Below, one piece after another: positions 5,258 through 26,837 of a DNA stretch of 30,559 nt. The DNA comes from a virus, in the IMG/VR virus record IMGVR_UViG_3300020404_000244, positions 1-30,559 of that record. One strand, written 5' to 3'. Positions within the stretch are counted from its first letter, which is position 1. Every line of letters starts with the position of its first letter. A program made the translations under genes and the position numbers. The notes beneath the pieces are model-generated. The model ran no database searches. It had not been told where the DNA came from and worked only from the letters and a program-made list of their open reading frames with translations.

Positions 5258-5447
5258 TTGATACCTCTACTATTGGTTCACTACTAGATGTGTCTATGTA
5301 ATCACCTTTAGATGATTTCATATATTTTCTTGTAGTAACATCTTTTACCAACATACCATCTTTTAGAGTGTAAGTAATATATTTTGCAACAATTACACCT
5401 TCTTTACTTCTTTCAATATGTTCTTTCATAGGCCCTTCTTCTATCAT
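5247..5447 (-). CDS. Small hypothetical protein (66 aa)
   Basis: A 66-aa protein of mixed charge with beta-type character in the middle (VIVAKYITYTL). Its ATG overlaps the stop of the 153-aa gene by 4 nt (ATGA), and its end overlaps the start of the 833-aa gene by 11 nt. This tight packing argues that it is a real, coupled gene. An internal ATG six codons later (MKEHIERSKEGV) has a better ribosome site (GAAGG), so the protein may be 60 aa. No domain was recognised. Confidence 0.55.
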   Translation of the reverse strand: MIEEGPMKEHIERSKEGVIVAKYITYTLKDGMLVKDVTTRKYMKSSKGDYIDTSSSEPIVEVSNET

Positions 5448-5905
5448 TTTTTTGCTCTCATTTTTGCAATTCTCTCTCTATCTGCAATTCTTACTTTTCT
5501 TTCTTGTTTCTTCGCAATCTTATTAATCTTCTTTTTAATATTTGGTTTAGATAAGAAGTTCTGAGTTATCTGTGCTTTTCTTTGCATTGGTAAACTTCTA
5601 TATGGAAGTTTGTATATCTTTTGCACTAATAAATCAATCGCTTTCTTTCTTGCAATTCTTTTTATCGCTTGTGGTTTTTTATATCTTTTTAATGACCTCA
5701 TTCTTTTTTTCACAAACATTGCAGATTTTGCTCTTAACTTTCTTCCTGCCTTTCTTGCTCTTTGTATAAACTTTGAAATCGCAGTAACTTCGTCAAGATT
5801 TTCACTATCCATTATCTCAACAATCTCTTGGTCTATTGAATACATATCTCTAACATCATCATCTAAATCCATAACAAACTTTTTTAACTCTGTAAATGTT
5901 TTCAT
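5444..5905 (-). CDS. Very basic head-associated protein with capsid-tag-like N-terminus
   Basis: A 153-aa protein starting MKTFTELKKFVMDLDDD, an acidic N-terminal third with an LDE site near residue 38. About 110 residues extremely rich in Lys and Arg follow (for example RARKAGRKLRAKSAMFVKKR). The pattern of a tag, a protease-type site and a polycationic body matches T4 internal head proteins that bind packaged DNA. Similar basic proteins are, from memory, conserved in marine T4-like phages. Its ATG overlaps the preceding stop by 4 nt. A DNA-binding, head-packaged role is inferred, and no enzyme motif is present. Confidence 0.6.
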   Translation of the reverse strand: MKTFTELKKFVMDLDDDVRDMYSIDQEIVEIMDSENLDEVTAISKFIQRARKAGRKLRAKSAMFVKKRMRSLKRYKKPQAIKRIARKKAIDLLVQKIYKLPYRSLPMQRKAQITQNFLSKPNIKKKINKIAKKQERKVRIADRERIAKMRAKK

Positions 5906-6339
5906 ATTTCACTCCCTAATTCAACAGTTTCTTTTTTCTGACCTCTTTCTTGCCAGTCGTATGATTTTTCATCAGTTTTAATCGGGCCACCTTTTGCCCA
6001 AGTATGACACGCTCTTGCAGAATGACATTTGAAATGATGCATCCAACAATATCCTAATCGTCCATCTTCATCAGATGTACTGCCTGGCAAACAAGCATCC
6101 ATTCTCTCAGAAATATCAAATGCAACACAATTATTACATACAGACTTCTTTGCAGCTGTTTCGGTTGTTTTCCAATATTTTGCGATATCTTTCCAGTAAT
6201 CACCTGGCTCATCTACATTCAACGGCCCGTAGTTATAATTTTTAATCGTTGCATCTCTATTCTTAGTATTTAACTTTAGATTTTGAGTTGCAGCTGGACA
6301 AGACATTTTCTCTACAATATGTTGTTTAAATGTCTTCAT
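5902..6339 (-). CDS. Cysteine/histidine-rich protein with capsid-tag-like N-terminus
   Basis: A 145-aa protein beginning MKTFKQHIVEK, almost identical to the tags of its neighbours. The body has seven cysteines: C14, C68, C71, C83, C98, C105 and C111. These include a CNNC pair, with histidines at 101, 102, 106 and 112 (the segment YCWMHHFKCHSARACH). The spacing suggests binding of zinc or an iron-sulfur cluster. A PLNVDEPGDYWKDIAKYW segment precedes the cysteines. From memory, such proteins occur in other marine T4-like phages with no known function. ATGA overlaps join it to both neighbours. Metal binding and packaging in the head are inferences. Confidence 0.6.
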   Translation of the reverse strand: MKTFKQHIVEKMSCPAATQNLKLNTKNRDATIKNYNYGPLNVDEPGDYWKDIAKYWKTTETAAKKSVCNNCVAFDISERMDACLPGSTSDEDGRLGYCWMHHFKCHSARACHTWAKGGPIKTDEKSYDWQERGQKKETVELGSEI

Positions 6340-6656
6340 TTGTTCATTTCCTTTGTTTTCTTTTTCATCTTCTCTATATAAGCACGATAGATTGCAGCCT
6401 CTTTTGTTTTACCAGCAACTTTTGCTCTTTGTTCCATTGCAATCGCAGCTTGTATTTTGTGTGCGTGTTTTCTATTACTACTATTTATTTTCTTTACACT
6501 TTCCCTTGCAGTCTTTTCATCTTTAAATCCTAGTCCGTGTATTGTACCTTTAGGATTCTCATCTGTATATAAATCAGAATGTTTATCAGACCCTGCTGGT
6601 TGACCTTTCTTTCTAGGTATTCTTGGTGCTTCTATAAATTGTTTAAATGTTTTCAT
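6336..6656 (-). CDS. Small conserved phage protein with capsid-tag-like N-terminus
   Basis: A 106-aa protein read from the ATG that forms a TAATG overlap with the upstream stop. A GTG two codons earlier is possible but would break the tag. It begins MKTFKQFIEAP. The middle has a characteristic PRKKGQPAGSDKHSDLYTDE segment, then IHGLGFKDEKTA, then HAHKIQAAIAMEQRA. I believe this corresponds to a conserved phage domain of unknown function (possibly DUF5872), but I am unsure of the family number. It is basic and has no membrane segment. Position and tag place it among the presumed head-packaged proteins. Confidence 0.65.
   Translation of the reverse strand: MKTFKQFIEAPRIPRKKGQPAGSDKHSDLYTDENPKGTIHGLGFKDEKTARESVKKINSSNRKHAHKIQAAIAMEQRAKVAGKTKEAAIYRAYIEKMKKKTKEMNK
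6633..6656 (-). repeat. 24-nt repeat encoding the shared tag (second copy 7730-7753)
   Basis: The 24 bases encoding MKTFKQFI, ending at the ATG, are identical here and at 7730-7753, the starts of two different genes. A closely similar stretch starts the gene at 6339. The rest of the genes are unrelated, so the tag appears to have been copied. Confidence 0.8.
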
Positions 6657-7753
6657 TACCACTTAACCATATTATTATATTTCACAACTGGTTCTAAAAC
6701 CATAAATTCCATCAATGATTTATAAGATTTAGAAACAAAACTATAAATTTTTTTAAAAAAACTTTTTATCCAGTTAATTGCTTTTTTAAAAGTTCTTTTT
6801 ATTATATCAAAAATACTCTCATTTAACAAATCTGCATTTTTTATTTCTTCTTCTTGTATCATTTTAACACCGACCTTCAAAGCAGACCAAAAGGTGTAAT
6901 AACCAGTACCACCTTTTTTATTAGATGGTGATTTTAATTTAGCAGAAGTTCTTTGTGTTGTTTTAAAAGTTGCATCTGGTTTAACATATTTCATTATTTT
7001 AGAAACATATTCGTCTGATGATTTAGTTACTTTATGTAAAGTTGCATTACCATCATAATCTGTTACTAAAAAATGGTCAGCAGTTCCATCATTATCACCA
7101 AATTTAATTTTACCAGTCATTGCTTCAAAAGTAAATTCTCTACCAAATCCTTCTGAATTTATAAATACATCTCTCATATCTTTTTTAAATGCTTTATGAG
7201 CTTCATCTGCTTTTTTTAGTATTTCTATCTCTGCAAATTTACCTGCTTTTGATAATTGTGTTTTATTACCTTTTATATTATATTTTGTCATATCTGTTGA
7301 TGGTAACATATTGTCTATATGTTTTTTTAATCTTTTAACTGCATCATCCAATGTTTTTGTATTATCCATTGCATTATAAAAAGTAGCAGTTGCTTCTTTT
7401 CTTTCACCAGACATTAATACTGCATCACCAGTTTTTAAAGATATCTTTTTGTTACCGATTATAAAATCAGTTTTAGGTGTCAATGTTGAACCTTTAGGTT
7501 TATCAGGCAAAAAGTATTTTGCCCATTTATCAGTTGCTGGATAAGAATTTTTAGGAAAATACGATTTACCAGTTAATTTTAAATCATTAATAATTTTTTT
7601 ACCAACTTTTTCTGAATTAGGAATCAAGTCTGAAACGAAGTTTTCACCTCCAGCTGCAGATACAATCACTCTTTCCATATCATATGCTTTTTTTGTGTCA
7701 CCCATAATTAAATACTCCTTTTGTTCGTTTATAAATTGTTTAAATGTTTTCAT
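6656..7753 (-). CDS. Tagged 365-aa protein, possible nuclease fold, basic C-terminal helices
   Basis: It begins MKTFKQFINEQ, the clearest match to a T4-type capsid-targeting tag with an INE site. The N-terminal domain contains TDFIIGNKKISLKTG (about residues 94-108), a D-x(n)-xK arrangement that could be a PD-(D/E)xK nuclease core, but this is weak. A conserved-looking segment follows (REFTFEAMTGKIKFGD). After an LLNES site near residue 312 come about 40 residues of alternating aromatic/aliphatic and Lys residues (IFDIIKRTFKKAINWIKSFF), an amphipathic, cationic, helical stretch that could be membrane-active. The ribosome site is GAGGA. The function is unknown. Nuclease activity and membrane binding are both testable guesses. 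Confidence 0.6.
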   Translation of the reverse strand: MKTFKQFINEQKEYLIMGDTKKAYDMERVIVSAAGGENFVSDLIPNSEKVGKKIINDLKLTGKSYFPKNSYPATDKWAKYFLPDKPKGSTLTPKTDFIIGNKKISLKTGDAVLMSGERKEATATFYNAMDNTKTLDDAVKRLKKHIDNMLPSTDMTKYNIKGNKTQLSKAGKFAEIEILKKADEAHKAFKKDMRDVFINSEGFGREFTFEAMTGKIKFGDNDGTADHFLVTDYDGNATLHKVTKSSDEYVSKIMKYVKPDATFKTTQRTSAKLKSPSNKKGGTGYYTFWSALKVGVKMIQEEEIKNADLLNESIFDIIKRTFKKAINWIKSFFKKIYSFVSKSYKSLMEFMVLEPVVKYNNMVKW

Positions 7754-7800: not shown

Positions 7801-9039
7801 TCACTTATCCCAATTCTTTATTGCAGTAAAGTTATTAAAACTAAACTCCATTCTATCAACAAGTTTTACGGCCTTACCATCATTATTAATTGCGACATAA
7901 CCTTCTGGATTTGTAACCTTAAATCCATTTTTTGTTTTTATAAAGGTGTCCGTCAGTTGTTTAACTGAATTTAACTTTTTAACAATTAACATCTTTGCGG
8001 CCACAAGGGCTTGTTGAAAAGAAATGACACTTTCTATATTTCTGATATGTTTCTTAAACTCTCTCAGATACTCGTTCTTATTTCTTTCAATCTTTTCTTT
8101 TGCTCCGAGTGTCTTTACTTTGTCCTTATTCTTATCAAAATGATTTGCAATATGGTCAAGATATCCTTGAGCGTGTTGTCTTACATTTTTGATAGTTTGT
8201 CCTTCTCTTACTTTTAAATTATTATATGTTTTCAGAGAAGCACCAGACAAATTCCCTACCATTGAATTTTGAAGTCTAATAAACTTCTCTAACAATGATG
8301 AATTTATTCGTCTAAAAATCTTACCTACTGTTGATAAGTATGATGTTACTTCATCTGTTTCTGATTGAGTAAATGTTGCCTTACCAGAAACATCTTTAAA
8401 TGAAGCATTATCCATCCATACACTATCTATATTTTTTAATCCTTTTATATCCACACCGAATTTTGCAGACATTGATGGTAGTGAATCACCTTCATAGGTG
8501 GTGTGCCATACAACTCCAATTTGTGATTTAGAGATTCGTCCAGCAAGTTCAGAACCAATAGGTGTAGCATACACGATAGTATTAGGCTGAAAAGAAATAA
8601 AGGTTTTGTCATCTATTTTCTCCTTTTTTAAATCTTTCTTGGTGAACATCAAATCACCTTGAATTACATCTTTTATTCCTAGTTTTTTAAATTCTTTAAG
8701 TGCGATTGCAAACTTATCTTTTAAATCACCAGAAACATCTATCTCTGATTCTTCTTTATACAACTTTGGATTTACATTGAATACTGATTTCTTTGCGACA
8801 AAGAACTTGCCGTCTGATGGGTCAACGCCTGCAAATATAGCAGGAGCTCCGTCCCACTTAACAGTCATATTAACTGAACCTTTAGATGACCCAGATAACA
8901 TATCTCTAAGTGATTGTAGAAAATTAATCGCACCTCTACCCCCACCAACACCGAAGTTGAGTATTTCATCTTCTAGGTGTTCAAGGTGTAGATTTTTGCC
9001 TTGTTTATCTTCTAATAAAAATTCTTTAAATGTTAACAT
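7801..9039 (-). CDS. Ligase-fold nucleotidyltransferase candidate with capsid-tag-like N-terminus
   Basis: A 412-aa protein beginning MLTFKEFLLED, with an LLE cleavage-like site at residues 8-10. MTVKWDGAPAIF (58-69) fits motif I (KxDG) of the DNA/RNA ligase and capping-enzyme superfamily, with K61 as candidate for the covalent nucleotide adduct. Further possible motifs are QGDLMF (127-132, motif III-like), PEGYVAI (378-384, motif IV-like) and VKLVDR (391-396, motif V-like). A long helical insert (about 225-365) separates III and IV. Similar proteins with VKWDGAPA are, from memory, widespread in T4-like marine phages and usually unannotated. Activity is unproven; it could be a nick-sealing, RNA-repairing or degenerate enzyme. 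It stands alone behind its own promoter. Confidence 0.6.
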   Translation of the reverse strand: MLTFKEFLLEDKQGKNLHLEHLEDEILNFGVGGGRGAINFLQSLRDMLSGSSKGSVNMTVKWDGAPAIFAGVDPSDGKFFVAKKSVFNVNPKLYKEESEIDVSGDLKDKFAIALKEFKKLGIKDVIQGDLMFTKKDLKKEKIDDKTFISFQPNTIVYATPIGSELAGRISKSQIGVVWHTTYEGDSLPSMSAKFGVDIKGLKNIDSVWMDNASFKDVSGKATFTQSETDEVTSYLSTVGKIFRRINSSLLEKFIRLQNSMVGNLSGASLKTYNNLKVREGQTIKNVRQHAQGYLDHIANHFDKNKDKVKTLGAKEKIERNKNEYLREFKKHIRNIESVISFQQALVAAKMLIVKKLNSVKQLTDTFIKTKNGFKVTNPEGYVAINNDGKAVKLVDRMEFSFNNFTAIKNWDK

Positions 9040-13932: not shown

Positions 13933-13963
13933 TATTTATACTACAAAATTATTGTAATGTCAA
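13933..13963 (-). promoter_or_regulatory. Sigma70 promoter with embedded TATAAATA
   Basis: TTGACA (13963-13958), lying in the last codons of the methyltransferase gene, a 17-nt spacer, then TATAAA (13940-13935) that continues as TATAAATA (13940-13933). It precedes the 403-aa gene with a leader of about 55 nt. A second TATAAT (13914-13909) has no matching -35. Confidence 0.7.
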
Positions 13964-14575
13964 GTCACTTTGTATTCTTTTTTTACATAAATTGTAGTAT
14001 TCTTCATTTATCTCACTTCCAAGATAATTTCTTCCAACCTCTAGGGCTGCAATCGCAGTAGTACCACTTCCCATAAATGGGTCGTATACTACATCATTTT
14101 CATTAGTATGATTCTCTATCATCATACGACAAACTAATGAACTCATACCAAGTTTGAAACCATCTATATTAGTTGATTTTTCATCTAATATAACATCTAC
14201 CATATGTGGGTTTTTTAATTTAAATGGTTTCTTTGCAAATGTAAGTATGTGCATATAGTTCATACGAAACATATTTACTTTGTATGACTTAACCCATATA
14301 TTAGTCTTCCTTAAAAACCAACCATTATCTTCAAATACCTTAATTACTTTTATATGTTTTGGATATATTCTACCATCACCTTTTCTATCGGTGGTGCAAA
14401 CAGTAACCAAATTATTTGTAGGATTTAATAATGAAACCCAACTATACAAAAAATCTTCCCAATCATTTGTGTGAGCTGGAATACCTAATTCATTATAATC
14501 TGGTGGACTTGTAAGTACATAATTGTAATTAATATTTTTCTTTAATGTTTCTATGCAACTCTCTAGGTATATCAT
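13949..14575 (-). CDS. DNA methyltransferase, N4-cytosine/N6-adenine type, beta-class order
   Basis: A 208-aa enzyme. The catalytic motif IV, TSPPDYNELG, is near the N-terminus (about 22-31), and the SAM-binding motif I, DPFMGSGTT, is near the C-terminus, followed by the LGSEINEEYYNLCKKRI helix. This order is that of beta-class amino-methyltransferases (N6_N4_Mtase family). The S-P-P-D-Y catalytic tetrad is closer to N4-cytosine enzymes, but the base modified cannot be decided. Its ATG overlaps the stop of the larger methyltransferase in TAATG. There is no restriction endonuclease nearby, so it is a solitary phage methylase. The end of the gene carries the -35 box of the next promoter. Confidence 0.85.
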   Translation of the reverse strand: MIYLESCIETLKKNINYNYVLTSPPDYNELGIPAHTNDWEDFLYSWVSLLNPTNNLVTVCTTDRKGDGRIYPKHIKVIKVFEDNGWFLRKTNIWVKSYKVNMFRMNYMHILTFAKKPFKLKNPHMVDVILDEKSTNIDGFKLGMSSLVCRMMIENHTNENDVVYDPFMGSGTTAIAALEVGRNYLGSEINEEYYNLCKKRIQSDLTLQ

Positions 14576-15837
14576 TAAAAGAAACTTTCTAGTGTACTGA
14601 CTCTACAATGTTTAAATATGTCTTTATTTTTATCTTTACTAAAATACCATATATTCTCAATATACATTTTCTCCATAAATTCTTTTAACTTTTTTGAGTC
14701 AAAGTTTCCGTCTTCGTCTTTAAATTTAGTTGCACCTTGTGGTCTTTGCATAATTCTCATACCAACTTGACCCATAAAATGTGGTAATAACATATCAACA
14801 AGTTCATCTCCAGAACGATATCTTTTGTTTTTTACTTTAGGGTCTAATATGTTTATCATCATTACACCATCATCACTTAATGAGTCAAATGTTTTTTGTG
14901 ATACTGGTAGATAAAAATTATCTCTCCAAGATTCATATTCATTAAATTTATACCACGATTGTAATTCTTGTTTTTCACCACCCTCGTTATATCTCTCTGT
15001 GGAAAAGTATGGTGGACTTGTAAATGCACAATCAACATTTTTTATTTCATCCCAAGGTAAATCTTCTGCACCACAATTATATATTTGTGTAGTTTTTTTA
15101 TTTCCAGTTAATCCATTCCAGAACTCAATCATCTTTTTATATCTTTTAAAAGTATTTGGATTAGGGTCGCAACCAATATAGTGTGTTGCATTTGAAGCGA
15201 AGAAACCAGTAAGTCTATCACCCCAACCCATAGATGTATCTAATACAGTCTTTGCATCTGTCATATCATATATTGTTTTTGCAACTATTGGTTTAAATTG
15301 TGTTGCAATATAAGTACCTAATCTAAATGACATAATATAAATTCTACCATTTAGTTCTTTAGTATCATTAACATTACGAAAGATAGGCCCAAATGCACCC
15401 CACAGATTATCACCATCATTCCACCTTTTTACTGGTGATTTATAACCATAAGAACCACACTCTAATCTTAAATCATTCATAAAGTAATCAGAACAATAAT
15501 TAAATTTAGGTGGGGCACTAATTACACCTAATCCATATTTACTATATGGATATTTGTAATCTGGATATTTTTCTAAGACTCTATCTTTTTTGTCTAGTGT
15601 TATATAATCGGTAAAGTCTGCACTTTGTAATTTACGAAAATTATCAACAACCTTTTTCTCTTCAAATTTTGCAAGTGGAAAAGGTGGTTTTACATTTGTA
15701 ATATATTCTGCAAGAGTCTTACGAAAATCTTCTTTACCATAGTCATCTATGGTTTTCTGAAATAATTCTGTTTTCATAACTGGTAAACCAGTTTCATCAG
15801 AACATTTTCTTAATAAATCATATAGTTCTTTATTCAC
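14575..15837 (-). CDS. DNA methyltransferase with clamp-binding-like C-terminal tail
   Basis: A 420-aa protein. The SAM-binding motif I, VLDTSMGWGDRLTGF (about residues 194-208), precedes the catalytic TSPPYF by about 75 residues. Between them is IGCDPNPNTF (motif II). This order (I before IV) differs from the other two methyltransferases here. The N-terminal 180 residues may be target recognition or a separate domain. The last residues, RVSTLESFF, closely resemble the DNA polymerase tail TLEDFF and fit a PIP-type sliding-clamp-binding peptide. Start GTG overlaps the polymerase stop (TAGTG), so it is co-transcribed and coupled with gp43. The base specificity is unknown. Confidence 0.8.
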   Translation of the reverse strand: MNKELYDLLRKCSDETGLPVMKTELFQKTIDDYGKEDFRKTLAEYITNVKPPFPLAKFEEKKVVDNFRKLQSADFTDYITLDKKDRVLEKYPDYKYPYSKYGLGVISAPPKFNYCSDYFMNDLRLECGSYGYKSPVKRWNDGDNLWGAFGPIFRNVNDTKELNGRIYIMSFRLGTYIATQFKPIVAKTIYDMTDAKTVLDTSMGWGDRLTGFFASNATHYIGCDPNPNTFKRYKKMIEFWNGLTGNKKTTQIYNCGAEDLPWDEIKNVDCAFTSPPYFSTERYNEGGEKQELQSWYKFNEYESWRDNFYLPVSQKTFDSLSDDGVMMINILDPKVKNKRYRSGDELVDMLLPHFMGQVGMRIMQRPQGATKFKDEDGNFDSKKLKEFMEKMYIENIWYFSKDKNKDIFKHCRVSTLESFF

Positions 15838-22704: not shown

Positions 22705-23658
22705 CTAAGCAACTTCTGCCATTTGAAGTGCAGTATCAAGTGCTTTCAACTTAACTCTTCTGTTTCTACCATACCAAGCAGAAGTAAGTCTTCCGTCAGT
22801 AGTAGAACCTTGTTGGTGGTCAGTATTAAAAGTAACAGCATTAAATGCCTGCCACCAAGTACCTTTTGCATACTGATTACCAGGCTGAGTTTCAATAACC
22901 TCAAATGCTTTCCTACCATTAACTGTTGTCGGAACAGATGGGTCTTTAATATCATCATCTTTGATATTAGATGGATATACTGTGTTAAGATACTCAACAA
23001 GTCTTTCAGTAGTATATCTTTTACTACCAAGAAACTCTGCCATAGTCTTGTAATTATCCATTTTTTCTTTTGCAATACCAAGTTGTTCTTTAACCATTTC
23101 TGGATTAAACTCTCTTCTATGATTTACTTTTACCATAGAATCACTATCGGTACTCAAAGATAAAGTTAAAGTATTATTACAAACAACCCTAATAGGTGTC
23201 ATTCTAATATCAATAGACTTACCAAACTGATGTGGGTTTGAAAACAACATATAGTTTTCTACCTCATCACCTTTGAATAATTCAAAACTTTGTTTAACTT
23301 TTGCAAGAGCCCATACCATTTTACCGTCCATTAAAGAACCAGCAGTATGCATCTCTAAATCACCAGCTTCAACATACTCAGAAAAGAAATCAAACGCTTC
23401 TTTGTTTTGAACTGGATTCCAGTTTTGTCCTACACTTGGTGCAAGAACTTTGTTATCAGAACTTCTAACTAATGCAAATGAACCAGTCTTTTGTTGTCCA
23501 GATGGGTTATCTACATAAGTAGGTAGTTTTTTTACATACCAATCAAGACCAGATTGTTTTAACATCTCGTCAGTTGATAAATCGTGTGGAACTTTTGTTC
23601 CTAATCCGTGCCAAGGCACTTCACCAGCATATGCCATTGTTTCAACAGCTGCAACCAT
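22705..23658 (-). CDS. DUF932 phage/plasmid-like protein
   Basis: A 317-aa protein of the DUF932 family (phage/plasmid-like protein TIGR03299 type). It has MAYAGEVPWHGLGTKV at the start, VGQNWNPVQNKEAFDFF (about residues 76-92), the core DIRMTPIRVVCNNTL and a Trp-rich WWQAFNAVTFNTDH segment near the end. The biochemical function of the family is not settled. There is no signal or membrane segment. It has its own consensus promoter and an AAAGGAG ribosome site, so it is probably expressed early and strongly. Confidence 0.85.
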   Translation of the reverse strand: MVAAVETMAYAGEVPWHGLGTKVPHDLSTDEMLKQSGLDWYVKKLPTYVDNPSGQQKTGSFALVRSSDNKVLAPSVGQNWNPVQNKEAFDFFSEYVEAGDLEMHTAGSLMDGKMVWALAKVKQSFELFKGDEVENYMLFSNPHQFGKSIDIRMTPIRVVCNNTLTLSLSTDSDSMVKVNHRREFNPEMVKEQLGIAKEKMDNYKTMAEFLGSKRYTTERLVEYLNTVYPSNIKDDDIKDPSVPTTVNGRKAFEVIETQPGNQYAKGTWWQAFNAVTFNTDHQQGSTTDGRLTSAWYGRNRRVKLKALDTALQMAEVA

Positions 23659-23707
23659 AATATACTCCTTTTTTAATTGTTATTATGTAATTTGTTATCA
23701 TAACTAC

Positions 23708-23735
23708 ATTATACTTGTTTTTGAAACAATGTCAA
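23708..23735 (-). promoter_or_regulatory. Perfect sigma70 promoter of DUF932 with internal dyad
   Basis: TTGACA (23735-23730), 16-nt spacer, TATAAT (23713-23708). The spacer contains a perfect 6-bp inverted repeat, TTGTTT-CAA-AAACAA, which could be an operator. About 50 nt of A/T-rich leader follows. Confidence 0.85.
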
Positions 23736-23801
23736 CCCCTTTTTGTATTTTTTTGATATTTTATTTATGAATATACATTATATTTTTTATACAAAATAAT
23801 A

Positions 23802-23807
23802 TATAAT
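23802..23807 (+). promoter_or_regulatory. Possible -10 box of the plus-strand microgene
   Basis: TATAAT about 28 nt upstream of the 22-codon plus-strand reading frame. No clear -35 is seen, and the region is nearly all A/T. Confidence 0.35.
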
Positions 23808-23835
23808 GATATAGACCAAGCCATAGGAGATTCAA

Positions 23836-23904
23836 ATGAATTTATTTACGATTACAATGTCAGTATTCACAATATTAATGAGTATAGGAATGGGAATCAA
23901 CTAA
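23836..23904 (+). CDS. 22-aa hydrophobic microprotein, the only plus-strand gene candidate
   Basis: Reads MNLFTITMSVFTILMSIGMGIN. It has AGGAGA 5-6 nt before the ATG, a -10-like TATAAT about 28 nt upstream, and an intrinsic terminator starting 8 nt after the stop. The peptide is hydrophobic and Met-rich enough to insert in a membrane. Promoter, ribosome site, short frame and terminator together make a complete mini-transcription unit. It could also be a small RNA with an incidental frame. Confidence 0.5.
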   Translation: MNLFTITMSVFTILMSIGMGIN

Positions 23905-23932
23905 AAAAAAAGGGAACACTAAGTTCCCTTTT
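23905..23932. terminator. Bidirectional intrinsic terminator
   Basis: GGGAAC (23912-23917), 5-nt loop, GTTCCC (23923-23928), extended by A/T pairs on both sides. A run of A precedes and TTTT follows on the plus strand. On the minus strand the stem is followed by at least eight T. It can end both the plus-strand microgene and the long minus-strand operon. Confidence 0.85.
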
Positions 23933-23934
23933 CT

Positions 23935-23988
23935 CTATACTATGTAAGGTAATAGTAAATACCCTACAATACCTATTGCAATCCACAT
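23935..23988 (-). CDS. 17-aa single-span membrane microprotein
   Basis: Reads MWIAIGIVGYLLLPYIV, an almost entirely hydrophobic peptide long enough for one membrane span. The ATG is 7 nt after a GGAG that overlaps the end of the glycine-zipper gene. The stop lies 3 nt before the terminator. It is the last frame of the envelope-protein cluster. The size makes chance possible, but ribosome site, position and composition support it. Confidence 0.5.
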   Translation of the reverse strand: MWIAIGIVGYLLLPYIV

Positions 23989-23992
23989 ATTT

Positions 23993-24313
23993 TTACTCCA
24001 TATGTACGACTACCCATTGTCCGAACTCTCTGCAAGCCATACCTACACGATTAGTTCCAGTAATAAACTTTTTACATCTTTTACCTTCTATTTCGTGTAA
24101 TTCTTCAACTCTGTCAATATGTTGACCGACTTGACCACCAATGAATAGACCTAGTAGTCCACTAGCTGCAAGTTTATATGGGTCAGTTACATTTAATTGT
24201 TTTGCACCCAACACACCTAAAAATGCACCAACACCCTCAAATAATCCCTTTTTAGGTTGACTAAGTGCAGTTGTTGATGCAAACAGAAAAATTAAGACAA
24301 TAAATAATCTCAT
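23993..24313 (-). CDS. Exported glycine-zipper protein (17-kDa antigen-like)
   Basis: A 106-aa protein read from the ATG that overlaps the LPP20 stop (TAATG). An earlier in-frame codon at 24328 would place five charged residues before the signal peptide. Signal peptide MRLFIVLIFLFASTTALSQ. Then come glycine-zipper stretches (GVGAFLGVLGAK and AASGLLGLFIGGQVGQHID) and a C-terminal part with CREFG and one more Cys. This resembles the Rickettsia 17-kDa surface antigen/SlyB-type glycine-zipper 2TM domain of outer-membrane proteins. It has no lipobox cysteine at the cleavage site. It probably acts in the host envelope; what it does there is unknown. Confidence 0.65.
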   Translation of the reverse strand: MRLFIVLIFLFASTTALSQPKKGLFEGVGAFLGVLGAKQLNVTDPYKLAASGLLGLFIGGQVGQHIDRVEELHEIEGKRCKKFITGTNRVGMACREFGQWVVVHME

Positions 24314-25020
24314 TATTCTGTCATCCAATTATCAGGCCCAATAGAGGGAACTGTTTTGATGTATCTATTATTATTACCCAAGTCGTCTATTTCTTTTTCT
24401 ATATTAGATAAAGATTGTACTTCGTCTTGGTCTAAAGATTTGTCAACACTTCTTTCTAGTTCTTGAAATGCATTTTTAGAACGAAGTTTTGCATAGACAG
24501 CTCGGTCTTTTCTCATTCTATTCATAAGTATTTTTATTGCTTCTTCATCAGAATATTCTAATAATACAAATGAACGATATTGAGTTCCAGCAGGATATAC
24601 TTCCATATCTTTAATTTTATAACCAGCAACATCTACTGATGCAATTACATTCTTAGATACTCTTTCTAGTTCATTTAATACTTGAGAATCTAAATCAGTA
24701 GTACCAGTTTTTGCAATAAATTGTTTGGTCATACTATCAAGTTTACCATTTATTCTATCTGCAAGAACTGTTTTTGCGTTCATAGTTGCAATATCAACAG
24801 ATAATTGTAAGTCTGGTGCGATTGCAGTTCCAGATGAGTAAATCATTTTTTCATCTTCTGGAAGTTCTTTGAACCAATCTGGTATAACACTAGATGTACT
24901 TTCAACTTTTTGTATTTGTTGTTGAATCTCTGGTGTTTCAACCAAAGGTTCAACATCTACTTGAGTTGCACAAGAACCTAGTGCGATGAGAGGTAGAATA
25001 CTAAAGAGTTTCTTCTTCAT
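24313..25020 (-). CDS. LPP20-like lipoprotein
   Basis: A 235-aa protein. It starts MKKKLFSILPLIALGSC, a lipoprotein signal with LGSC lipobox (C17 lipidated). The body has IPDWFKELPEDEKMIYSSGTA (about 46-66), then a repeated-Ala helix (DIATMNAKTVLADRINGKL), as in the LPP20 family. Members of that family sit near CsgG-like or flagellar outer-membrane genes in bacteria. Phage-encoded copies are unusual. A helical acidic region follows. It overlaps the entericidin-like gene by 20 nt and the glycine-zipper gene in TAATG. A role in the host outer membrane is inferred. Confidence 0.75.
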   Translation of the reverse strand: MKKKLFSILPLIALGSCATQVDVEPLVETPEIQQQIQKVESTSSVIPDWFKELPEDEKMIYSSGTAIAPDLQLSVDIATMNAKTVLADRINGKLDSMTKQFIAKTGTTDLDSQVLNELERVSKNVIASVDVAGYKIKDMEVYPAGTQYRSFVLLEYSDEEAIKILMNRMRKDRAVYAKLRSKNAFQELERSVDKSLDQDEVQSLSNIEKEIDDLGNNNRYIKTVPSIGPDNWMTE

Positions 25021-25195
25021 AATTAATCACCTCCTCTTCATCAGATTTGAGTAGTTTTTCTTTTGACCAATCAGATACACCTTGTATATCTTGACCGAAT
25101 CCAGAAACAGTACCACACGACTGTGTAAATATAAGTAGAGCAGCAACTCCACATAAAATTAAAACATTTGTTAAAATGCCTTTAGTTTTATTCAT
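25001..25195 (-). CDS. Entericidin-like small lipoprotein
   Basis: A 64-aa protein with a hydrophobic N-terminal segment (VLILCGVAALLIFTQSC) ending in a lipobox-like TQSC. It is followed by GTVSGFGQDIQGVSD, which matches the C-terminal pattern of entericidin A/B-type lipoproteins. An acidic tail (DEEEVINYEEETL) is unlike entericidins and overlaps the next gene. In bacteria, entericidins are small toxin/antidote-like lipoproteins, so a role in stressing or stabilising the host envelope is conceivable. An AGGTGA ribosome site precedes it. Confidence 0.55.
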   Translation of the reverse strand: MNKTKGILTNVLILCGVAALLIFTQSCGTVSGFGQDIQGVSDWSKEKLLKSDEEEVINYEEETL

Positions 25196-25198
25196 ATA

Positions 25199-25651
25199 TC
25201 ACCTATTACATTGTTTAAGTTTAACTTCTTGTAATCCCAACCCTGGCATTACAACATTAAGTGTCTCTATTCTACACTCAATTCTTTGTTTTGTCAAGCT
25301 CTTAACTTGACAATTTAAATTTTTAGTTGATTCTAATTTTTCTGGAACAAACTCTTGTAATAATCTTTCCTTTGCACGATTAACTGCATTTTGACAAGCT
25401 TCGTTCTCTGACATATCTGGTGTGAATATATAATCTTGTGAAGTGATATACCATTTACCTTGTACTTTTGCTTTAATTATTACTTTGCATTTCTTTGTTT
25501 CTCTAAAATATTCTGTTACTGTTTTATCTTTTACGATTACTGATTCTACTGTACCTTGCATTGTAGATGTAGTTTGATTATCATATTCACAAGGATTTGT
25601 TGCGAAAACAAATGATGGTAATAAACACAATACACTAATCTTTTTAATCAT
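25199..25651 (-). CDS. Exported cysteine-containing protein of unknown function
   Basis: A 150-aa protein with a Sec-type signal peptide (MIKKISVLCLLPSFVFA, cleavage before TNPCEY). The mature part has several cysteines (such as NPCEY, KKCKV, EACQN, NLNCQ and IECRI) that could form disulfides in the periplasm. The mid-part alternates beta strands with an Ala-rich helix (ACQNAVNRAKERLL). That is reminiscent of the N-terminal domain of FlgT-like or similar outer-membrane accessory proteins, but this is weak. It overlaps the methyltransferase end by 8 nt and begins the envelope cluster. Confidence 0.55.
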   Translation of the reverse strand: MIKKISVLCLLPSFVFATNPCEYDNQTTSTMQGTVESVIVKDKTVTEYFRETKKCKVIIKAKVQGKWYITSQDYIFTPDMSENEACQNAVNRAKERLLQEFVPEKLESTKNLNCQVKSLTKQRIECRIETLNVVMPGLGLQEVKLKQCNR

Positions 25652-26837
25652 AAAACCCCTCTAATGTTGATTTAGTTTCTACTGATTCTATTCTTGCAGT
25701 TGCAATATTAAAATACTCTTCTTCTTTTTCTATACCTACAAATTCAAAGTTCTCTTCTTTTGCAGCCATACCAGTTGAACCACTACCCATAAATGGGTCT
25801 AATACTGTACCACCTTTTGGTGTAATCAATCTACATAAGTATTTCATTAACTTAATAGGTTTTACTGTTGGGTGTATATTTTTCTTTTGAGTTACAAATC
25901 TACCAGTAACATCATTATCTATTTTAGAATCTTTCATATCATCTGGGTTTCTACGACCAGGCATACTTGATGCTTTCTTTGTTGGTAGATTATTTAATCC
26001 TTGATTTCTTTCTACTTTTGATGTTTTTGCACAATAAAAATATCTTGATTTATCTTCAAACAATTCTTTTATACTATCACTACCATCGTGCATTACATTT
26101 GATGGAAATCTACCTCTAGGGTCTGCATCTGCATATAAAGCATTCTCTGCTTTAAAACTAGAATTACCATTATTAAATACAGAATCATCAGTTCTTGATT
26201 TACGAACAACCATTTTTCTTTTTACATTTTCTGTTTGACCAAAACTTAATTTATCAATACCCATATTTTCTTTTGATTGACGGCCTTGGTCACGAAAGTC
26301 TGGATTAGTATCTGGATATTTTGCATCATTACCCTCAACTCTACATTCATCTATATTAATACCACCAGTTCTGTGTTTCAATACATTATCTACAACTGAT
26401 TTTTCTGATAAAGGTTTTCTTGCAAGAACTAAAGGTTCGTGTGCTGGTTTAAGTGCAGTACCCCAACCCTTATATTCATTCATTATTTCTCTATTCTTTT
26501 TATCTATTACCTTACCAATATTCATACTCTTTGGAAATCCAGAACCATATAACCACATTACTTGGTCACGAATCTCAAAACCAGCATCTTCTATTGCAAC
26601 TGCCATTCTATGATATGTTCTACTTCCAGAAAATGCAAGTAGATGTCCACCAGGCTTCAATACCTTAAAACATAGTTCCCAAGTTTCTTTTTGAAATGCA
26701 ATACCAGTAGAATCCCAACTTCTTCCCATAAAACCTAATTCATAAGGTGGGTCTGTAACGATAGAATCAACGAAGACCTCATCTTCTATCATCATCTTTA
26801 AAATATTTAAACAATCACCGTTGTGTAATCTCATCAT
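25644..26837 (-). CDS. DNA methyltransferase (beta-class) with clamp-binding-like tail
   Basis: A 397-aa enzyme. Motif IV, TDPPYELGFMGRSWD, near residues 28-42 and motif I, DPFMGSGSTGMAA, near 350-362 give the beta-class order (N6-adenine or N4-cytosine). DPPY favours N6-adenine but is not decisive. The long region between them carries target recognition. The last residues, KSTLEGFYD, match the TLExF(F/Y) tail of the polymerase and the 420-aa methyltransferase. It follows gp46 with a 4-nt overlap. There is no nearby restriction enzyme. Confidence 0.85.
   Translation of the reverse strand: MMRLHNGDCLNILKMMIEDEVFVDSIVTDPPYELGFMGRSWDSTGIAFQKETWELCFKVLKPGGHLLAFSGSRTYHRMAVAIEDAGFEIRDQVMWLYGSGFPKSMNIGKVIDKKNREIMNEYKGWGTALKPAHEPLVLARKPLSEKSVVDNVLKHRTGGINIDECRVEGNDAKYPDTNPDFRDQGRQSKENMGIDKLSFGQTENVKRKMVVRKSRTDDSVFNNGNSSFKAENALYADADPRGRFPSNVMHDGSDSIKELFEDKSRYFYCAKTSKVERNQGLNNLPTKKASSMPGRRNPDDMKDSKIDNDVTGRFVTQKKNIHPTVKPIKLMKYLCRLITPKGGTVLDPFMGSGSTGMAAKEENFEFVGIEKEEEYFNIATARIESVETKSTLEGFYD

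Follow-up and report, generated by a model that had tools for sequence, protein, structure and literature searches.

Two converging short genes and the operon behind one of them

The window analysed here, a 30.6-kb virus record (IMGVR_UViG_3300020404_000244), belongs to a T4-like phage of marine origin. With Methylophilales phage Melnitz it shares 60% identity in the DUF932 protein as well as the gene order clamp loader, clamp, DUF3310, Hsp20, DUF932. The minus strand carries every sizeable gene of the window, and the long open reading frames found on the plus strand elsewhere in it are antisense to these genes. Between 5444 and 9039, several adjacent genes (5902–6339, 6336–6662, 6656–7753, 7801–9039 and, more weakly, 5444–5905) have similar N-termini, with the motif M(K/L)TFK(Q/E)F/HI, as if they had a common leader or prohead-targeting sequence. 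When the intergenic gaps, which together make up 902 nt, were all scanned for ATG frames of 12–59 aa with a Shine–Dalgarno-like motif, exactly two frames were recovered, one of 22 aa on the plus strand and one of 17 aa on the minus strand. Both are located where the initial annotation had placed them, each with a ribosome-binding site that is read directly from the sequence, and across the 902 nt of intergenic DNA the plus frame is, as that annotation had also stated, the sole plus-strand candidate outside genes.

The plus-strand gene (23836–23904; MNLFTITMSVFTILMSIGMGIN) runs from ATG to TAA and encodes a 22-residue hydrophobic microprotein; its start is preceded by AGGAGATTCAA, with the Shine–Dalgarno sequence AGGAG (23825–23829, plus strand) 6 nt before the ATG. 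The minus-strand gene (23935–23988; MWIAIGIVGYLLLPYIV) encodes a hydrophobic microprotein of 17 residues and is preceded by GGAGTAAAAAT, its Shine–Dalgarno sequence GGAG being embedded in the last codons of the gene upstream. Both peptides are hydrophobic (GRAVY 1.4–2.1) and contain no charged residues, and their lengths of 17 and 22 residues, which do not exceed that of a typical transmembrane helix, are marginal for a span.

The two frames converge on a bidirectional intrinsic terminator (23908–23932), a hairpin of the form AAAAGGGAAC-ACTAA-GTTCCCTTTT with a GGGAAC/GTTCCC stem and flanking A and T runs, which folds on either strand, with energies of −12.9 and −17.1 kcal/mol and z-scores of −4.6 and −5.8. 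This confirms the arrangement that the initial annotation had described, including its distances of about 8 nt (measured to the GC stem) and 3 nt between the frame ends and the terminator. Among relatives, the stem varies by compensatory changes, to GGGGAC/GTCCCC in contig L037, GGGAC/GTCCC in L041 and GGGGC/GCCCC in L102, and all of these variants fold well in both directions.

An envelope cluster that encodes a 150-aa exported protein, a small lipoprotein, an LPP20-like lipoprotein and a glycine-zipper protein ends with the 17-aa frame as its last cistron. Directly upstream of this frame lies the gene of the glycine-zipper-like protein (23993–24328, minus strand; 111 aa), which has a signal sequence and was classified by synteny and by the Pfam family Gly-zipper_Omp, matched below threshold in all four homologues (best E 0.043). 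The synteny of this gene is kept in L041, L049 and L102, and the 17-aa gene follows it wherever it is visible, divergent lineages included. The LPP20-like lipoprotein (24313–25020, minus strand) has the lipobox LGSC and was recognised by alignment with its homologues in Melnitz, Mosig and HTVC008M (49% identity between the window and Melnitz), while the Pfam family LPP20 is matched below threshold in two of six members. The small lipoprotein, a 64-aa product of the same operon taken from the list of open reading frames (25001–25195, minus strand; SCGTVSGFGQDIQ), is kept in L039, L041, L049 and L102 and has no PHROG match and no Pfam match at 0.001; from its SCGTVSGFGQDIQ sequence we take it to resemble the entericidin-type lipoproteins.

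Conservation of the two frames

Relatives of the locus were collected through the DUF932 protein, through degenerate DNA patterns for each peptide end and through neighbouring proteins. The 22-aa frame occurs in 21 IMG/VR contigs besides the window, as nine nucleotide haplotypes that are all 22 codons long and without any frame-breaking indel, and both the ATG start and an AGGAG or AGGGG ribosome-binding site are kept in all 21 carriers. Many of these carriers are near-identical and thus non-independent, so that the weight of the comparison falls on the diverged contigs L004, L015, L041 and L049. The variants follow the pattern MNLFTI[TSA][MV][SL][VI]FT[IFV][LV]MSIGMGIN, and over all pairs the gene has a pN/pS of 0.33, the lowest of the six frames. 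Silent differences account for 6 of 8 between the window and L015 (P 0.001) and for about 6.5 of 11 between the window and L041 (P 0.013); for the two microprotein genes taken together, the pairwise binomial P values for silent bias range from 0.0004 to 0.03, on small counts and among contigs with shared ancestry.

The allele of L049 (MGYINSILILTVILVSAGMGIN) is highly diverged, with about 38% of its nucleotides changed, and it keeps the reading frame, the length and the GMGIN end intact. With a hidden Markov model built without this allele, the L049 frame ranked first among 534 frames (E 6e-4). The pattern of substitutions across these contigs indicates that the 22-aa frame is under protein-level selection and is a genuine coding gene.

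The 17-aa gene is present in all carriers of the 22-aa gene and additionally in L007 and L102. Its homologues are 17–23 aa long with an invariant MWIAxxxxGYxxLP motif, and its pN/pS of 0.24 is again the lowest of the six frames. Between the window and L037, all six differences are silent over the codons compared, which exclude the last one, where V is replaced by T. Conservation in relatives, one of the checks proposed by the initial annotation itself, held for both frames at the protein level.

As anticipated there, the two frames escape the usual gene callers, and no annotation or family model covers either of them. The 22-aa peptide matched no PHROG, Pfam or PADLOC model, and two patterns of it found no match in GTDB genomes. 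Among cultured phages there was no relative of the region by DNA search, of the 111-aa protein or of the 22-aa peptide, and searches of three cultured relatives did not recover the 17-aa peptide. Three pattern matches (L069, L070 and L071) were set aside as chance, since they fall at the C-terminal end, ...VSVGMGIN, of a viral protein that is unrelated and roughly 140 residues long.

Transcription, loss and exchange of the plus-strand unit

The promoter region of the plus unit (23763–23813, plus strand) contains the box ATTTATGAATATA at 23763–23775 and a −10-like TATAAT(G) at about 23801–23807, and transcription is expected to start near 23813. Among relatives the ATTTRTGAATATA box and the TATAAT-like −10 are conserved and the sequence between them varies; because there is no good −35 hexamer, the class of this promoter is assigned tentatively. 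In viral contigs a close form of the box, GRTATTTTATTTRTGAATA, is found in almost all carriers of the plus unit and otherwise in only seven unrelated contigs (L152–L158). We considered whether the box is a genome-wide promoter motif of the phage and ruled this out, since the window has one exact copy and the remaining occurrences are in unrelated DNA only.

The DUF932 gene has a consensus sigma-70 promoter on the opposite strand (23708–23735, minus strand; TTGACA-16-TATAAT, 12 of 12 matches), which is divergent from the plus unit and adjoins the edge of a segment that is missing in L007. The plus and DUF932 transcripts start about 100 nt apart, point away from each other and do not overlap. 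Since they diverge, the plus RNA is unable to act as an antisense RNA to the DUF932 leader, and a small RNA opposing that leader, which the initial annotation had offered as an alternative, is not borne out. Barring read-through, the terminator is the sole place where the plus RNA and the operon transcript come together. An inverted repeat (23843–23855 and 23949–23961) was examined as a site of RNA–RNA contact and rejected, since the repeats have the same sense in both transcripts and are not kept in L005.

In two relatives the plus gene is missing. In L007, everything from just after TGTCAACCCC through the plus stop codon is absent, and in L102 the plus reading frame and its Shine–Dalgarno sequence are absent with a promoter-like remnant left behind; in both, the terminator and the minus gene stay. 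The plus unit is thus a separate, dispensable one-gene unit, whose complete loss leaves the minus gene in place. The two genes had been described as a pair, but an obligate pairing does not fit contigs in which the minus gene persists alone and still ends at the terminator.

The plus unit also appears to be exchanged. Between contigs L037 and L049, identity is 92% in the promoter and 94% in the minus gene but drops to 57% in the plus leader and 62% in the plus reading frame, such that more than half of the plus-peptide residues differ while the minus peptide differs by one residue. Compared with the window, L037 is instead 96% identical in the plus leader and 99% in the plus reading frame, but only 68% in the promoter. 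The simplest reading is that the transcribed part of the plus unit has been exchanged between phages, in one case, that of L037, a contig that ends about 20 nt past the 17-aa gene and in which an assembly fault is possible.

Other cargo is found near the plus unit. In L037 and L049 a 91-aa gene occupies the gap between DUF932 and the plus unit. In L047 (contig 3300020432_000058, 10985–12350), and in this contig only, the same gap holds a type II-like methyltransferase (N6_N4_Mtase by Pfam, a type II MTase by PADLOC) and a 200-aa protein with no family match, which are possibly a restriction–modification pair inserted at a hotspot beside a duplicated TGTCAACCCC. The cargo of this gap in L102 (contig 3300029448_006102, 1438–1704), located directly before DUF932, encodes 88 aa that consist of little more than sigma-70 region 4 (Pfam E 2.4e-17). 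The window itself contains three DNA methyltransferase-like genes of the N6_N4_Mtase family within 30 kb (13949–14575, 14575–15837 and 25644–26837).

Possible roles of the two peptides

We favour, with a probability of roughly 0.6, the reading that these are two genuine but separate very small membrane-protein genes, the 17-mer at the end of an operon and the 22-mer in an accessory one-gene unit. Under this reading, each peptide would form a single uncharged helix in the inner membrane of the host. The 17-mer could be an adaptor or small subunit for the envelope proteins whose genes lie immediately upstream, and the 22-mer could act during infection on a membrane target of host or phage, either modulating it as an accessory factor or serving in exclusion, with its conserved S-x-G-M-G-I-N end as the likely contact or packing face.

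Such an arrangement has counterparts in bacteria. KdpF and CydX are encoded in operons with their larger complexes, as the 17-mer is encoded with larger envelope proteins, and both phage peptides resemble small membrane proteins of the KdpF, AcrZ and CydX type in being very short and hydrophobic, with one predicted helix and their own Shine–Dalgarno sequence. No likeness of sequence is claimed, and the phage peptides are shorter, at 17–22 aa compared to about 29–49 aa.

A toxin or lysis role is possible for the plus peptide. As a full module, with a membrane-disrupting 22-aa peptide controlled by a convergent transcript, this could be a type I toxin–antitoxin-like system comparable to par of pAD1 (fst/RNAII) and ibs/sib, or a small holin- or antiholin-like unit, and we consider it unlikely. 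The size and hydrophobicity of the peptide fit, given that the Fst and Ibs toxins are hydrophobic peptides of 19–33 aa, and a plus unit that is lost and swapped among relatives is in keeping with such a module. In par, a bidirectional terminator is shared by two converging transcripts (PMC8167048), a layout also seen here, and read-through of the operon terminator would yield an antisense transcript covering the plus mRNA in full. At the phage locus, however, the convergent partner is not an RNA gene but a protein operon, which exists without the plus gene in L007 and L102. The features that distinguish Fst/par and Ibs/Sib were looked for and not found: a repeat scan of 23600–24000 showed no par-type direct repeats spanning the two transcripts, the 22-aa peptide has no charged C-terminal tail, and no minus-strand site of at least 9/12, in a scan for the sigma-70 class only, could provide a dedicated antisense RNA promoter between 23836 and 24296. 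As for lysis, the relative Melnitz reportedly has no lysin-like genes except gp67, and a curli pore, instead of a pinholin, has been proposed to time its lysis in a pinholin manner (PMC9004378); no recognised lysis gene lies beside the two peptide genes in the window. Like holins, pinholins and antiholins, the two peptides are small proteins of a lytic phage with a membrane location, which here is predicted, but at 22 or 17 aa they are far below known holins, and the lack of PHROG and PADLOC matches for the 22-aa peptide also speaks against a module of this kind.

If the plus transcript acted as a small RNA, or as a decoy linked to the terminator, and the frame were incidental, one would expect what is seen in its length of about 120 nt, its end at a strong terminator, its well-conserved leader (TATAGACCAAGCCATAGGAG) and a fold z-score of −2.5, which is mostly due to the terminator. 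Yet this leader is altered in L041 and L049, the transcript does not overlap the DUF932 leader, and Rfam gave no match at the gathering threshold, with only sub-threshold matches at chance level. An RNA in place of a peptide, as the initial annotation had entertained, is improbable, since the codon-wise silent changes, with conservative replacements among the others, the fixed 22-codon length and the diverged L049 allele favour a translated product. We would give equally little credence to the two peptides as obligate partners in a hetero-complex: the minus gene accompanies the plus gene in every contig that has it (21 of 21 and the window), but it also occurs without it in L007 and L102, and between L037 and L049 the plus peptide differs at more than half of its positions next to a minus peptide with a single change. 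Chance frames in a conserved AT-rich spacer would explain the hydrophobicity, since T-rich DNA tends to encode hydrophobic residues, and close relatives would retain any frame; this is very hard to reconcile with conservation that reaches the clearly diverged L015, L041, L049 and L102 together with silent-site excess and Shine–Dalgarno retention, and nothing else in the intergenic DNA of the window is alike.

A more specific and rather improbable reading is that the plus unit is a cassette for immunity or exclusion whose alleles are swapped; its 22-residue peptide would act on the host inner membrane, and its diversity would be kept by exchange of the whole transcription unit between otherwise near-identical phages. 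Among the protein-coding accessory genes known from viruses it would, if this is true, be one of the smallest. More generally, if the plus unit provides an exchangeable membrane-active peptide, a streamlined ocean virus could change the host membrane at very low cost, with a gene of 69 bp.

Tiny phage membrane proteins are already known as a kind, and what is found here are two new families at the lower size limit. Frames of 17–22 codons are under the usual gene-caller cut-off and too short for most homology tools, and such genes are therefore absent from phage annotation. Same-length conservation, silent-site bias, Shine–Dalgarno retention, swapped alleles and losses allow them to be validated from DNA alone.

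A tiny gene before an LPP20-like lipoprotein is also seen in the operons of Melnitz EXVC044M, Mosig EXVC030M and HTVC008M. Unlike the window, these phages carry the LPP20-like gene at another genomic position, where it is accompanied neither by the 17-aa gene nor by the plus unit, nor by the 111-aa gene in matching order. In other marine phages with LPP20/glycine-zipper operons (L092, L094, L095, L115 and L149), another hydrophobic peptide, 25 aa long and with a Shine–Dalgarno sequence of its own, for example MITGLTIIGGIVIANAVITLVGTML, is encoded directly after the glycine-zipper gene or one gene later. Its presence in some of these other operons suggests, short of proof, that LPP20/glycine-zipper operons recurrently include a tiny membrane peptide.
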